From Rhodospirillales bacterium (GTDB taxonomy: Bacteria; Pseudomonadota; Alphaproteobacteria; Dongiales; Dongiaceae), in contig VFKA01000041.1 in NCBI GenBank assembly GCA_009885795.1, positions 1 to 34,916 on the forward strand: 34,916 nt of DNA, read 5' to 3'. Positions 7,703 through 16,605 of the stretch are shown one piece after another. Under the pieces are notes generated by a model. The model was given only the letters and a program-made list of their open reading frames with translations, did no database searches and had not been told where the DNA came from. The position numbers and the translations under genes are program-made. Each line of letters starts with the position of its first letter. Positions within the stretch are counted from its first letter, which is position 1.

Positions 7703-7789
7703 GCCCAGGTGGCGGAATTGGTAGACGCGCAGGTTTCAGGTACCTGTGACCGAAAGGTCGTGGAAGTTCGAGTCTTCTCCTGGGCACCA
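7703..7789 (+). tRNA. tRNA-Leu (anticodon CAG)
   Basis: An 87-nt class II tRNA with encoded CCA. The acceptor arms GCCCAGG and CCTGGGC pair fully and are followed by discriminator A and CCA. The anticodon stem CAGGT/ACCTG encloses the loop TTCAGGT, giving anticodon CAG for CUG codons. A long variable arm (TGACC-GAAA-GGTCG) and a T-loop TTCGAGT fit leucine tRNA. The RNase D gene begins 50 bp downstream on the same strand. Confidence 0.97.
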
Positions 7790-12413: not shown

Positions 12414-13844
12414 ATGGCGATCAGTCAGCGTATGGAGATGCGGCAGGGCCAGGCCCTGGCCATGACGCCGCAGCTCCAGCAGGCCATCAAGCTGTTAACC
12501 ATGGGCAATCTCGAGCTTCAGGCCCATGTCGAGCTGGAGCTCGAATCGAACCCGATGCTCGAGCGGGCCGACGCCGCCCTGCCTGGGCCGGATGCGCCTC
12601 TGGCGACGGACGCCCCGGTCGAGGAGAAGAGCGGGCCTTCGGTGTTCGATGCCGATGAACCATGGCTGCCGCTCGGCGGGTCCGGCGGCGCGTCGGATCG
12701 TGGCGGCGGGGGCGGGGATTTCGACGACGACCTGCCGAGCCTTGCCGACACGCTGTCGCAGGAAGTCGATTTGCGCCAGCACCTGCTGTCGCAACTCGCC
12801 ACCGAGATCGCCGACCCGACCGACCGGTTGATCGGCGCGCAGATCGTCGATCTGATGGACGAAGCAGGCTACATCCCCCGCGACTTGGAGCCGGTCGCGA
12901 CCCTGCTGGGCTGCGACCCGGCGCGCGTGGAAGCCACCCTTGCCCAACTTCAGCAATTCGATCCGCCCGGGATCCTTGCCCGCGATCTCAAGGAATGCCT
13001 GGCGCTGCAATTGCGCGAACGCAACCGTCTCGATCCGGCCATGCAGGCGTTGATCGACAATCTCGATCTGCTGGCCAAGGGCGAACGCGCGGCGCTGCTT
13101 GATATCTGCGGGGTGGATCATGAGGACCTCGCCGACATGGCGGCGGAAATTCGCGCGCTCGATCCAAAGCCGGCGGTCGCCTTCGACCGCGCTCCCTCGC
13201 CGACGGCAACGCCCGACATCTTCGTGCATCGCCTGGGCGATGGCTGGGTGGTCGAACTGAACAACGAGACCTTGCCCCGCGTGTTGGTCGATCGCGCCTA
13301 TTATGCGCGCGTCAACGCCACGGCGCGCGAAAAGACCGAGCGCGACTACGTGACCGAGCGCTACCGTTCCGCCACCTGGTTGGTCAAGGCGCTGGAACAG
13401 CGCGCGACCACCATCCTGAAGGTGGCATCGGAGATCGTGCGCCGCCAGGACGGCTTCCTGCGCCACGGCGTCCAGCATCTCCAGCCGCTGGTGCGCCGCG
13501 AGGTGGCCGCGGAGATCGGCATGCACGAGAGTACCGTCAGCCGCGTGACCACGGACAAGTACATGGCCACGCCGCGCGGCGTTTACGAACTGTCCTTTTT
13601 CTTTGGCGCCAGCATCGCCGCCGCCGACGGCACCGGCGCGCGCGCCGCCGCCGCGGTGCGTTCCCGGCTGCGCCAGCTCATCGACGCCGAACGGCCGGAC
13701 CAACCCTTGTCCGACGACCGGCTGGTGGAATGCCTACGCGCGGACGGCACCGATATCGCCCGCCGCACCGTCGCTAAATATAGAGAATCAATGCAGATTC
13801 CGTCTTCGCCCCAGCGCCGGCGCGGCAAGCTTTTGCGAATCTGA
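12414..13844 (+). CDS. rpoN: RNA polymerase sigma-54 factor
   Basis: RpoN directs core RNA polymerase to -24/-12 promoters of nitrogen and other regulated genes and depends on AAA+ activators. The 476-residue protein has the glutamine- and leucine-rich region I (residues 1-50, MTPQLQQAIKLLTMGNLEL). An acidic, glycine-rich region II follows (about 60-115). The core-binding domain comes next, and the DNA-binding part ends in the RpoN box ARRTVAKYRE (449-458). It starts 11 bp after lptB, the common gene order in Proteobacteria. Confidence 0.97.
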   Translation: MAISQRMEMRQGQALAMTPQLQQAIKLLTMGNLELQAHVELELESNPMLERADAALPGPDAPLATDAPVEEKSGPSVFDADEPWLPLGGSGGASDRGGGGGDFDDDLPSLADTLSQEVDLRQHLLSQLATEIADPTDRLIGAQIVDLMDEAGYIPRDLEPVATLLGCDPARVEATLAQLQQFDPPGILARDLKECLALQLRERNRLDPAMQALIDNLDLLAKGERAALLDICGVDHEDLADMAAEIRALDPKPAVAFDRAPSPTATPDIFVHRLGDGWVVELNNETLPRVLVDRAYYARVNATAREKTERDYVTERYRSATWLVKALEQRATTILKVASEIVRRQDGFLRHGVQHLQPLVRREVAAEIGMHESTVSRVTTDKYMATPRGVYELSFFFGASIAAADGTGARAAAAVRSRLRQLIDAERPDQPLSDDRLVECLRADGTDIARRTVAKYRESMQIPSSPQRRRGKLLRI

Positions 13845-13886
13845 TTGGCGAGGCCACGGGGCATGGCCCGGGCCGCCCGCTTGTTG

Positions 13887-13915
13887 TTGACAGGCAGCGG
13901 CCCCCTACCTATGTT
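13887..13915 (+). promoter_or_regulatory. Candidate sigma-70 promoter for hpf-ptsN
   Basis: TTGACA (13887-13892) and TATGTT (13910-13915) are separated by exactly 17 bp in the rpoN-hpf gap. The -35 is consensus and the -10 matches 4 of 6. It would give hpf-ptsN its own transcript with a leader of about 60 nt, besides read-through from rpoN. Confidence 0.65.
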
Positions 13916-13984
13916 CGCCCACTTTCCCGCAGAGGCCGGGCTAGCGATTTTCGCCGGCCTTTCACAAATCAATTTTCATCGTCA

Positions 13985-14587
13985 ATGGCTCTAAGCGTCA
14001 AAGGCAAGCAACTCGATGTCGGGGACGCGCTGCGCCAGCACGTAACCGATAACATCGACAGCTTGTTCGGCAAGTACTTCAGCGATCCGATCGATGCCAC
14101 GGTCACCTTTGCCCGCGAGGCGCATCTCTATCGCGCCCAAATCTCCGTGCATGTCGGGCGGGGCATTCGCATGGAGAGCGAGGCCGATTCCGATACGCCT
14201 TACTCGGCTTACGACACGGCGGCCAATCGGATCGCCAAGCGCCTGCGCCGCCACAAGCGCCGCCTGCGCGACCATCACCGCCGCGAAGTGGCAGTGGAGC
14301 CGGCCCGGCACTATGTTCTGGCCGCGGAGCGCACGGACGAGGAGACGGTGGAAAACGAATCGGCCCAGCCCGTCATCATCGCCGAGATGACCGGCGAGGT
14401 GCCGACACTCACGGTGGGCGAAGCGGTCATGCGGCTCGATCTGACGGACGAACCGGCCATGCTGTTCCGCAACTCGTCCCATGGCGGTCTGAACATGGTT
14501 TATCGGCGCGCCGACGGCAATGTCGGTTGGCTCGATCCACGCGGCAACCGAGGCAGCGGACCCAATCCGGGCCGGACGGACGAATGA
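13985..14587 (+). CDS. hpf: Ribosome hibernation promoting factor, long form
   Basis: Long HPF dimerises 70S ribosomes to 100S particles under starvation or slow growth. The 200-residue product has an N-terminal S30AE domain (about 1-100, beginning MALSVKGKQLDVGDALRQHV and ending in a basic helix RIAKRLRRHKRRLRDHHRR). The C-terminal dimerisation domain occupies about 135-190 (TVGEAVMRLDLTDEPAMLFRNSSHGGLNMVYRRADGNVGWLDP). The domain is near-canonical. It lies 140 bp after rpoN, a conserved neighbour, and its stop overlaps the ptsN start (ATGA). No strong ribosome site is seen at the start. Confidence 0.95.
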   Translation: MALSVKGKQLDVGDALRQHVTDNIDSLFGKYFSDPIDATVTFAREAHLYRAQISVHVGRGIRMESEADSDTPYSAYDTAANRIAKRLRRHKRRLRDHHRREVAVEPARHYVLAAERTDEETVENESAQPVIIAEMTGEVPTLTVGEAVMRLDLTDEPAMLFRNSSHGGLNMVYRRADGNVGWLDPRGNRGSGPNPGRTDE

Positions 14588-15051
14588 TGGAAATCGAGGT
14601 TCTACTGGCTCCCGACCGCGTCATCGCCAATTTGCGCGTCACCAGCAAGAAGCAGGCGTTGCAGGAACTGGCCAAACGCGCGGCCGAGGCGATCGGCCTT
14701 CACGAGCGCGCCATTTTCGACGTGCTGCTCGAGCGCGAGCGGCTCGGCACCACCGGTGTCGGCAATGGCATCGCCATTCCGCACGGCAAGCTCGCCGGGC
14801 TCAAGCAATTGGTCGGGCTGTTCGCCCGCCTCGAAACGCCCATCGATTTCGATTCGATCGACGACCAGCCCGTCGATCTCATCTTCCTGCTTCTGGCGCC
14901 GGAAGCCGCGGGCGCCGATCATTTGAAGGCGCTGGCCCGTGTCTCGCGCCTGCTGCGCGACCGCTCCGTCTGCGAAAAGCTGCGCGGCGCCGATCAGCCG
15001 GACGCGCTCTATGCGCTCCTCACCCAATCGCCGGCGAGCCACGCCGCCTGA
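14584..15051 (+). CDS. ptsN: PTS IIA-like nitrogen regulatory protein (EIIA-Ntr)
   Basis: EIIA-Ntr accepts phosphate from the PtsP-NPr relay and regulates potassium transport, nitrogen metabolism and PHA metabolism in various Proteobacteria. The 155-residue protein has the phosphorylation site His67 in GVGNGIAIPHGKL, an exact family match. The start is the first of two consecutive ATGs and overlaps the hpf stop. The frame is open another 19 codons upstream, but that part is inside hpf. Its partners ptsP and ptsO are not in the window. The link with the PHA genes at 20-32 kb is suggestive only. Confidence 0.95.
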   Translation: MMEIEVLLAPDRVIANLRVTSKKQALQELAKRAAEAIGLHERAIFDVLLERERLGTTGVGNGIAIPHGKLAGLKQLVGLFARLETPIDFDSIDDQPVDLIFLLLAPEAAGADHLKALARVSRLLRDRSVCEKLRGADQPDALYALLTQSPASHAA

Positions 15052-15290: not shown

Positions 15291-15713
15291 CTACCTCGCA
15301 CCGCCATTGACGATCGGGATCGAGCGCGACGGGCGCTCCACGGCACGGCGCTGCAGATCGATGTGCAGCAACCCGGTGTCGAGAGCGGCGCCGACGACCT
15401 CGACACCCTCCGCGAGTACGAAGCCGCGCTGGAATTGCCGCGCGGCGATGCCCCGGTGCAGATAGATGCGCGATGTCTCTTCCTCGGGCCGGCGCCCGCG
15501 GACGGTCAGGCGGTTTTCTTCCACCTGCGCGTCGAGGTCCTCCGCGGCGAATCCGGCGACGGCCAAGGTGATCCGCAGCCTGTCCTCGCCGATCTGCTCG
15601 ATGTTGTAGGGCGGATAGCCTTCGTTGGCCGCCTTGGAGATGCTCTCCAGCGTCCGCTCGATCCGGTCGAAGCCAAGCAGCAGCGGGCTGTTGAACAAGG
15701 ATAGGCGAGTCAT
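15291..15713 (-). CDS. Small heat shock protein, Hsp20/IbpA family
   Basis: An ATP-independent holdase of 140 residues that binds unfolding proteins and hands them to DnaK and ClpB. The start MTRLSLFNSPLLLGFDRIERTLE matches the IbpA/HspH-type N-terminal region. An alpha-crystallin domain (about 35-125) contains NIEQIGEDRLRITLAVAGF and NRLTVRGRR. The C-terminal anchor is the I-X-I/V motif IPIV. A ROSE-like thermometer and a possible heat-shock promoter lie upstream. It is in an operon with DUF1150 and divergent from pyrE. Confidence 0.94.
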   Translation of the reverse strand: MTRLSLFNSPLLLGFDRIERTLESISKAANEGYPPYNIEQIGEDRLRITLAVAGFAAEDLDAQVEENRLTVRGRRPEEETSRIYLHRGIAARQFQRGFVLAEGVEVVGAALDTGLLHIDLQRRAVERPSRSIPIVNGGAR

Positions 15714-15790
15714 CGTTGCGGCCCCTCCATTTGAGCGAGCGCGATTTCAGGTGGCATTTCACCGGCGGCCCCCGAGGCGCCGCCGTCGTG
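15714..15790 (-). promoter_or_regulatory. ROSE-like RNA thermometer in hsp20 leader
   Basis: On the minus strand the leader can form successive hairpins: GGCGGCGCC with its GC-rich complement, then GGUG/CACC. The last hairpin, at 15721-15740, is GCUCGCUC-AAAU-GGAGGGGC. It pairs the Shine-Dalgarno GGAGG with GCUC and CUC and leaves one unpaired G. That strand contains UCGCU, fitting the ROSE consensus U(U/C)GCU with a bulged G opposite the ribosome site. The start codon is about 10 nt after GGAGG. ROSE elements are known to control hsp20 genes of alphaproteobacteria. Folding was done by eye. Confidence 0.75.
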
Positions 15791-15795
15791 CGAAA

Positions 15796-15826
15796 TTACT
15801 TGGGAACGCCGCCCTTGAGAATCAAG
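15796..15826 (-). promoter_or_regulatory. Candidate heat-shock (RpoH) promoter of hsp20
   Basis: On the minus strand CTTGATT (15826-15820) is followed after 15 bp by CCCAAGTAA (15804-15796). This resembles the sigma-32 pattern CTTGAAA-N11-16-CCCCATNT. Transcription would start near 15788, giving a leader of about 75 nt that covers the ROSE-like hairpins. The -10 match is partial. Confidence 0.4.
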
Positions 15827-15844
15827 ATCAAGACGGCCTATGAT
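15815..15844 (+). promoter_or_regulatory. Candidate sigma-70 promoter of pyrE
   Basis: TTGAGA (15815-15820) and TATGAT (15839-15844) are separated by 18 bp, each 5 of 6 to consensus. The predicted start is about 24 nt before the pyrE ATG. The -35 overlaps the proposed RpoH -35 of hsp20 on the other strand. Confidence 0.6.
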
Positions 15845-15874: not shown

Positions 15875-16444
15875 ATGCCCAGTATGCCGTCGCGCCAAAC
15901 GCCGCAAGCCGCGCGGGAGAGGCTGCGTCAGATCATCAAGACGGAATCCCTGCGATCCGGGGGAGAGTTCCGCCTGGCGTCCGGCAAGACCAGCACCATG
16001 TTCTTCGACCTGAAAAAGACCGTACTCGACCCGGAAGGCGCCAATTTGATGGCCGACGCGGTTCTCGACCTCTTGAAGGACGACCGGCCCGACTTCATCG
16101 GCGGGCTGGAGATGGGCGCCGTGCCCGTCGTTCAGGCGATCTGCACCAAGAGCTTCCCCGAAAACCCGATCCGCGGCTTCTTCGTCAGGAAGGAGCTGAA
16201 AGGCCACGGGACCAATCAGACGATCGAGGGGCATCTCCGCGATGGCGCCCGCGTCGTCATTCTGGAAGACGTGACCACCACCGGGGGTTCGGCGCTAAAG
16301 GCCGTCGCCGCGGTCGAGGGCCGCGGCTGCCGGGTCGAGAAGGTCATCACCATCGTAGACCGCCTCGAAGGCGCCAAGGAAAATCTGGCCGCGCGCGGTA
16401 TCGCGCTCGTCGCCCTCTTCACCAAGGACGACTTCGCCGGATGA
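15875..16444 (+). CDS. pyrE: Orotate phosphoribosyltransferase
   Basis: PyrE converts orotate and PRPP to orotidine 5'-phosphate in pyrimidine synthesis. The 189-residue protein has the PRPP-binding motif VVILEDVTTTGG (residues 127-138). It also has RLASGKTSTMFFDLKKT near residue 33 and the flexible loop VRKELKGHGTNQTIEG (104-119). All are characteristic. ATG at 15875 is chosen; 15884 is an alternative three codons later. The frame is open upstream to 15716, but that part overlaps the hsp20 leader and the promoter. Ribosome-site quality is poor for both starts. Confidence 0.95.
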   Translation: MPSMPSRQTPQAARERLRQIIKTESLRSGGEFRLASGKTSTMFFDLKKTVLDPEGANLMADAVLDLLKDDRPDFIGGLEMGAVPVVQAICTKSFPENPIRGFFVRKELKGHGTNQTIEGHLRDGARVVILEDVTTTGGSALKAVAAVEGRGCRVEKVITIVDRLEGAKENLAARGIALVALFTKDDFAG

Positions 16445-16445
16445 A

Positions 16446-16478
16446 GGGTCTCGGGCCGAATCTCGAAAACCGAGACCC
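16446..16478 (+). terminator. Hairpin after pyrE
   Basis: GGGTCTCGG (16446-16454) pairs perfectly over 9 bp with CCGAGACCC (16470-16478), starting 2 bp after the pyrE stop. There is no T-tract, so it may be a processing barrier rather than a classical intrinsic terminator. Confidence 0.55.
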
Positions 16479-16488
16479 ATGGCCGATC

Positions 16489-16569
16489 CTTCGAGACGCG
16501 TTCTTCGAACGCTCCTCAGGATGAGGAATATTACCTCATGCTGAGGAGCCGCGAAGCGGCGTCTCGAAG
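16489..16569. repeat. Composite palindrome, copy 2
   Basis: CTTCGAGACGC (16489-16499) pairs with GCGTCTCGAAG (16559-16569). Inside, GCTCCTCAGGATGAGG (16511-16526) pairs with CCTCATGCTGAGGAGC (16534-16549) with one mismatch. The layout matches the copy at 9844-9935. The element lies between the convergent pyrE and aminotransferase genes and could terminate transcription from both sides. Confidence 0.7.
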
Positions 16570-16605
16570 CATGGCGACCGGGTCGAAGTTTCTAAAGACT
16601 TGGTA

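Follow-up and report, generated by a model that had tools for sequence, protein, structure and literature searches.

The leader of the small heat-shock gene hsp20 in the analysed stretch of DNA (34,916 nucleotides, hereafter the window) is predicted to form three hairpins directly 5' of the ATG (15785–15722, minus strand), the last of which pairs the Shine-Dalgarno (SD) sequence with a motif of ROSE-like RNA thermometers (Table 1). Judging from the sequence and its relatives, the leader very probably acts as a ROSE-like RNA thermometer that holds back translation of hsp20 until heat shock, a reading to which we give a probability of about 0.87. The observation itself is confirmed, and comprises the sequence and its conservation, the gene context, the resemblance to an RpoH promoter and, in relatives, covarying upstream hairpins; the thermometer reading is supported.

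Table 1. Features of the hsp20 locus in the window.
Feature	Position	Strand	Basis and remarks
hsp20, small heat-shock protein (alpha-crystallin family), 140 aa	15291..15713	-	PF00011, E 2e-16; ATG at 15713
DUF1150 (LarA family), 71 aa	15070..15285	-	PF06620, 2.3e-8; start 5 nt past the hsp20 stop
Divergent pyrE-like phosphoribosyltransferase	begins near 15875	+	PF00156
RpoH-like promoter, CTTGAT-N16-CCCAAGT	15798..15826	-	10 of 13 positions; sigma-32 consensus from PMC3669281
5' hairpin, CGGCGGC-[G]-CC...GG-GCCGCCG, bulged G15778	15763..15785	-	predicted; bulged-G hairpins and covariation in relatives
Middle hairpin, GGUG/CACC, short	15750..15763	-	predicted fold; weakest of the three
3' hairpin, anti-SD CUCGCUC (15739-15733) with SD GGAGGGG (15728-15722)	15722..15742	-	sequence and predicted fold; G15736 bulged
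UCGCU, a U(U/C)GCU motif of ROSE-like thermometers	15734..15738	-	sequence; motif as defined in PMC3669281 and PMC11342760

Architecture of the hsp20 leader

The first residue of the window Hsp20 is the start of the alignment in most orthologues, whose identity to it is at most 73% among the best-scoring loci listed, and the 3' end of the SD lies 8 nt upstream of the ATG. Start codon, ribosome-binding site and leader are consistent with one another, as the first-pass annotation had stated. The intergenic stretch between hsp20 and pyrE measures about 160 nt. Linkage to pyrE was considered and discarded, a divergent pyrE being present, within the fetched flanks, at only one of the 104 loci compared below, namely the window itself. 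Downstream of pyrE, a repeat of some 120 bases that is palindromic in part (16470–16590) has 76 matches across the 3.46-Mb genome, many of them on both strands at the same place, and resembles a dispersed repeat family. Genes for sigma-54, a hibernation-promoting factor and a PTS EIIA component lie in a row (12414–15051, plus strand) that ends 18 nt from the convergent DUF1150 gene, and a tRNA-Leu (CAG) gene is located at 7703–7789 (plus strand).

Within the SD hairpin, nucleotides 15739–15722 of the minus strand read CUCGCUC-AAAUG-GAGGGG, and the predicted pairs CUC/GAG and CUC/GGG flank the bulged G15736. The earlier claim that the last hairpin pairs the SD with UCGCU and leaves a bulged G can be seen in both the sequence and the predicted fold. 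The genome contains 15 occurrences of the pattern TCGCTCN(3-9)GRGGRG, compared with five of the reversed pattern. Genomic context was obtained for 14 of the 15 sites (L119, near a contig end, was left out); apart from the window's own site, a potential start follows at two of these 14 sites, after 5 and 15 nt, but both sites are covered by open frames on the same strand, of 737 and 962 codons.

Two further hairpins had likewise been proposed, and both are predicted, a strong one at 15785–15763 and a weak one at 15763–15750, the latter without the bulged-G motif that is present in the middle hairpin of thirty aligned relatives. The RpoH-like promoter is conserved among the orthologous leaders at the level of sequence, with scores of at least 10 of 13 in 59 of 89 leaders and in 3% of shuffles. 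Transcription would start near 15790, about 7 nt beyond this promoter, and give a leader of about 77 nt. The predicted start coincides with the upstream end given to the element in the first-pass annotation, which had suggested a possible RpoH promoter and a leader of the right length. An alternative fold, in which GGGCGGCG is paired with GCGCUCGCU and which would apply if the RNA began upstream of about 15808, was set aside because this stretch falls within the predicted promoter. On the plus strand, a sigma-70-like promoter directed toward pyrE (15815–15844, 10 of 12 positions) overlaps the RpoH-like promoter (15826–15798, minus strand), and mutual exclusion of the two is possible.

The folding energy of the window leader is no better than that of shuffled sequences (z = −0.80, −0.02 and +0.79 in three foldings). 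Calculated with ViennaRNA, exposure of the SD in the leader amounts to about 0.2 between 20 and 50 °C and to 0.26 at 60 °C, so that the SD remains largely paired at temperatures up to 50 °C. For the SD hairpin alone, exposure changes from 0.08 at 25 °C to 0.17 at 70 °C, whereas the isolated ROSE hairpin of the other hsp20 leader in this genome (C7, see below) shows the larger rise, from 0.03 to 0.31 over the same range. These figures are not decisive, because models of this kind leave non-canonical, heat-labile pairs untreated and the C7 ROSE hairpin also opens little. ROSE sensing is said to depend on such non-canonical, heat-labile pairs (PMC4166951). Under the thermometer reading, the SD hairpin in the window would open on heating.

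Conservation and covariation among orthologous leaders

Since the folding z-scores were null and no Rfam family matched the window leader, either at the gathering cut-off or at E up to 10, orthologous leaders were collected, and the case rests on their comparison. The collection comprised 30 loci, the best of the 49 out of 61 genomes that gave a match, and the best 80 of 345 relatives from a species-level collection. L001–L003 (the other hsp20, along with a redundant copy of the window) were left out of the leader set, and the 110 loci yielded 104 distinct leaders, the window included. Within the last 45 nt, U(U/C)GCU is found in 99 of these 104 leaders of best-matching relatives, compared with 11.8 ± 3.3 in dinucleotide shuffles, and CUCGCUC in 80 (1.6 ± 1.3 in shuffles). 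In 90 of the 99 leaders with the motif, 3–8 nt separate it from the SD; L022, L030, L035, L071 and L082 are the five without it. Comparison with related hsp20 leaders had been recommended as a check in the first-pass annotation, and this excess over shuffles speaks in favour of the element. Further upstream, a strictly defined bulged-G hairpin, in which the bulge is followed by CC, was detected in 63 of 89 representative leaders (window included; 2.1 ± 1.5 in 20 shuffles), and the bulge is a G in the best bulged hairpin of 71 of 80 leaders.

Two alignments were analysed for covariation. Alignment A2 consists of 30 relatives that were picked solely for carrying GGG[C/T]GCC, the 5' arm of the middle hairpin. 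RNAalifold folds it into three hairpins with 13 pairs, six of which are changed on both sides. After extension of the structure to 21 pairs, covariation reached 0.186, compared with 0.137 ± 0.008 in shuffled alignments (0 of 500 reach the value) and at most 0.079 with slid partners, a comparison in which relatedness inflates the shuffle control and the consensus-derived structure favours itself in the slid control. Doubly changed cells number 21, with 6.0 expected from the controls. The support falls on hairpin I, with six doubly changed pairs, and on one pair of hairpin II; the core of the SD hairpin (hairpin III) is nearly invariant and therefore lies beyond the reach of the test. The bulge column holds a G in 28, 30 and 30 of the 30 leaders in the three hairpins, respectively, the G of hairpin II having belonged to the motif used for selection.

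Of 90 representatives, 83 entered alignment A1; excluded were the window, a leader that was too short and the five that lack the motif. RNAalifold proposes no structure for it. On A1, the outer stem of the SD hairpin scored above letter shuffles in most runs but did not stand clear of the slid control (0.240 in the slid control, 0.248 for the stem). In the 80 leaders that could be anchored, the outer part gave −10.43, which is better than permuted flanks (−9.83 ± 0.23) but not than its own reversed flanks (−10.49 and −10.47). As the outer stem is no better than reversed flanks, it is explained by composition, and conserved pairing was not adopted for this stem.

A covariance model, R2, was built from the thirty A2 leaders, the window being excluded. 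Within the window, it ranks the hsp20 leader first at 32.4 bits, followed by a match of 18.4 bits. The leader is also first in the 3.46-Mb genome (32.4 bits, E 0.0036; next match 19.2 bits, E 1.5), where 150 of 5708 first-look candidates were scored and the E-values are rough; the match covers hairpins I and III and passes over the middle one. Applied to 142 class genomes, R2 gave at least 21 matches with E of 0.01 or less, each in a different genome; this is a lower bound because only 28 candidates per genome were scored. Eighteen of the 21 lie outside the training set. Twenty terminate no more than 10 nt from the start of an hsp20, and the remaining one overlaps such a start by 13 nt; a DUF1150-like match follows within 300 nt downstream in all 21 cases, and among the 28 candidates scored per genome none away from hsp20–DUF1150 matched at E 0.01. 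When R2 was applied to the 59 orthologous leaders not used for training (window included), 33 were found, all at most 8 nt from the start codon, and 26 were missed.

R1, a model of the 3' hairpin derived from A1, is too short for significance by itself. The window leader is its best match within the window (21.4 bits; next 12.4) and its second genome-wide, where an E of 0.57 is not significant. The best genomic match of R1, C64, lies inside a long open frame, presumably cobT-like, and was rejected as a chance match. In 61 genomes, R1 gave 25 matches, 13 of them at window-type hsp20 genes (most in the training set) and 12 elsewhere.

Relation to known ROSE elements

For alpha- and gammaproteobacteria, over 40 candidate ROSE-type elements are said to have been put forward by Waldminghaus in 2005. 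The other check named in the first-pass annotation, a comparison with the Rfam ROSE model, turned out negative for the window leader: it is matched neither by RF00435 (ROSE, cut-off 45 bits) nor by RF02523 (ROSE_3, cut-off 43 bits). RF02523 has three matches below the cut-off genome-wide, none of them on this contig, and a search of 15 orthologous loci with Rfam returned a single sub-threshold ROSE_3 match (L014, 25.9 of 43 bits). In 61 genomes, RF00435 gave 34 matches, 31 before other hsp20 genes, three elsewhere and none before a window-type hsp20, the two groups being divided by BLAST score rank. Because the RF00435 matches sit at the other hsp20 group in this way, the negative result was not counted as a refutation. 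The other hsp20 of the same genome is preceded by a leader (G000:C7:27953-28055; L001 1501-1603, minus strand) that scores 40.9 of 45 bits with the Rfam ROSE model and carries UUGCU in its SD hairpin; R2 gives it only 10.2 bits. In a relative, an Rfam ROSE match above the cut-off (G008:C1:535552-535625, 46.5 bits) is near none of the listed hsp20 genes.

ROSE-like elements are described as pairing the SD imperfectly with a U(U/C)GCU motif (PMC3669281, PMC11342760). In the window leader, such a motif opposes the SD, contains a bulged G and stands before a small heat-shock gene; the number of hairpins, two to four in ROSE-like elements, is three in the relatives, with covariation, and two strong plus one weak in the window. 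Since all of these features are present but the RF00435 score is not, its features make the leader ROSE-like, while its score places it outside RF00435. With the rhizobial type represented by RF00435 it shares several hairpins before a small heat-shock gene, the first with an unpaired G, and pairing of the SD with U(U/C)GCU around a bulged G; it differs in carrying UCGCUC in place of UUGCUC and in scoring no match.

The short ROSE-like thermometers of Pseudomonas ibpA (PMC3669281) also combine U(U/C)GCU opposite the SD with an upstream hairpin and a sigma-32 promoter, in a leader of about 60 nt. However, they are described with two hairpins, whereas the window has two strong ones and a weak middle one and belongs to an hsp20–DUF1150 unit. 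ROSE_3, which reaches a relative's leader below threshold and the window leader not at all, is of the same functional class. ROSE-G (PMC12857270) has in common with the window a bulged G opposite the SD, but is characterized by CUGCU together with another bulged G, located in the SD; the motif in the window is UCGCU and contains one bulge only, and CUGCU with opposed bulged Gs was not found in its leader. Among other reported cases, an Rfam ROSE is listed before an hsp20 of Gluconobacter (PMC5756330), ROSE-like elements are reported before two heat-shock genes of S. meliloti, one of them ibpA (PMC2873474), and the SD hairpin of oppF by itself is reported to give the full heat response (PMC11342760).

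Proposed control of hsp20 and the LarA-family gene

According to the thermometer reading, RpoH-type transcription from near 15790 would provide the leader of about 77 nt, in which at growth temperature CUCGCUC would pair with the SD, one G being bulged, so that ribosomes load poorly and little Hsp20 is produced. Upon heat shock, the last helix would open, the SD would become free and Hsp20 would be made, while the upstream hairpins probably hold the leader in register. The DUF1150 gene is probably co-transcribed with hsp20, and translational coupling of the two is possible. That DUF1150 would share the control had already been proposed, and fits the spacing of 5 nt, the adjacency of both genes (a same-strand DUF1150-like match at most 300 nt downstream in 94 of 104 loci of best-matching relatives, tblastn E up to 0.1) and the Caulobacter sHSP2–larA operon under sigma-32 (PMC10665427).

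In Caulobacter, the DUF1150 protein LarA is described as a heat-shock protein that activates the Lon protease and is itself degraded by Lon via a conserved C-terminus ending in histidine; larA forms a sigma-32-controlled operon with the small heat-shock gene shsp2 (PMC10665427). The window resembles this operon in the succession of a small heat-shock gene and a DUF1150 gene, in the predicted sigma-32-type promoter and in the V-x-V-H end, its DUF1150 protein terminating in VSVH, in agreement with the C-terminal LarA residues V86, V88 and H89 named in that report. Going by its sequence, the window DUF1150 protein is likely a Lon activator encoded in the hsp20 transcript. The controls described for sHSP2–larA are sigma-32 transcription and Lon proteolysis, the term 'RNA thermometer' is absent from the main text of PMC10665427, and a thermometer before hsp20–DUF1150 was not found among the literature matches listed.

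These two controls, being the ones reported for larA in Caulobacter (PMC10665427), agree with an explanation by transcription only, in which the promoter depends on RpoH and CUCGCUC persists on other grounds, for example because it is bound by a small RNA or RNA-binding protein that obstructs the ribosome site as well. The conserved RpoH-like promoter, the outer SD stem, which is not conserved as pairing, and the ViennaRNA calculations, which predict no melting below 50 °C, point in the same direction. However, the motif that is kept is the complement of the SD with one bulged G, is held at 3–8 nt from the SD in most of the leaders that bear it (90 of 99) and is accompanied by covarying upstream hairpins in relatives, and we regard control by transcription only as improbable. 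Chance or base composition would imply that GC-rich leaders pair a purine-rich SD anyway, as the null result of single-sequence folding might suggest; this is contradicted by the comparative results, namely the presence of U(U/C)GCU in 99 of 104 leaders with 11.8 expected, the first rank of the window leader in the genome under R2 and the location of all 21 class matches at the same gene pair, and hardly deserves credence.

The bulged G that is kept in the upstream hairpins, too, could indicate a sensor of a different class that resembles ROSE, the stack of bulged-G hairpins acting as a unit and also sensing, for instance, a ligand or an ion. Yet the Rfam ROSE consensus has an unpaired G also in its first hairpin, so that an upstream bulged G is not foreign to ROSE, and such a sensor appears very improbable. 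The ROSE-like thermometer may tentatively be extended to a wider and rather doubtful proposal, that of a ROSE branch invisible to Rfam which is fixed to the hsp20–larA operon in many alphaproteobacterial families and gates translation of both genes, the repeated bulged-G helix forming a multi-site cooperative thermometer. If this were true, heat itself, beyond sigma-32, would turn on chaperone and protease together.

What is new is this candidate ROSE branch, tied to the hsp20–larA operon, missed by current models and with a bulged G recurring in its hairpins. As R2 finds it at least 21 times in 142 class genomes and, among the candidates scored, nowhere else at E 0.01, the element could be annotated, and the comparative leader set is usable for probing what role the bulged Gs play upstream of the SD hairpin. 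Heat may release the chaperone and the Lon activator jointly if the leader acts as a thermometer, and a direct translational heat sensor would be added to the sHsp–LarA operon, whose second product activates the Lon protease (PMC10665427).
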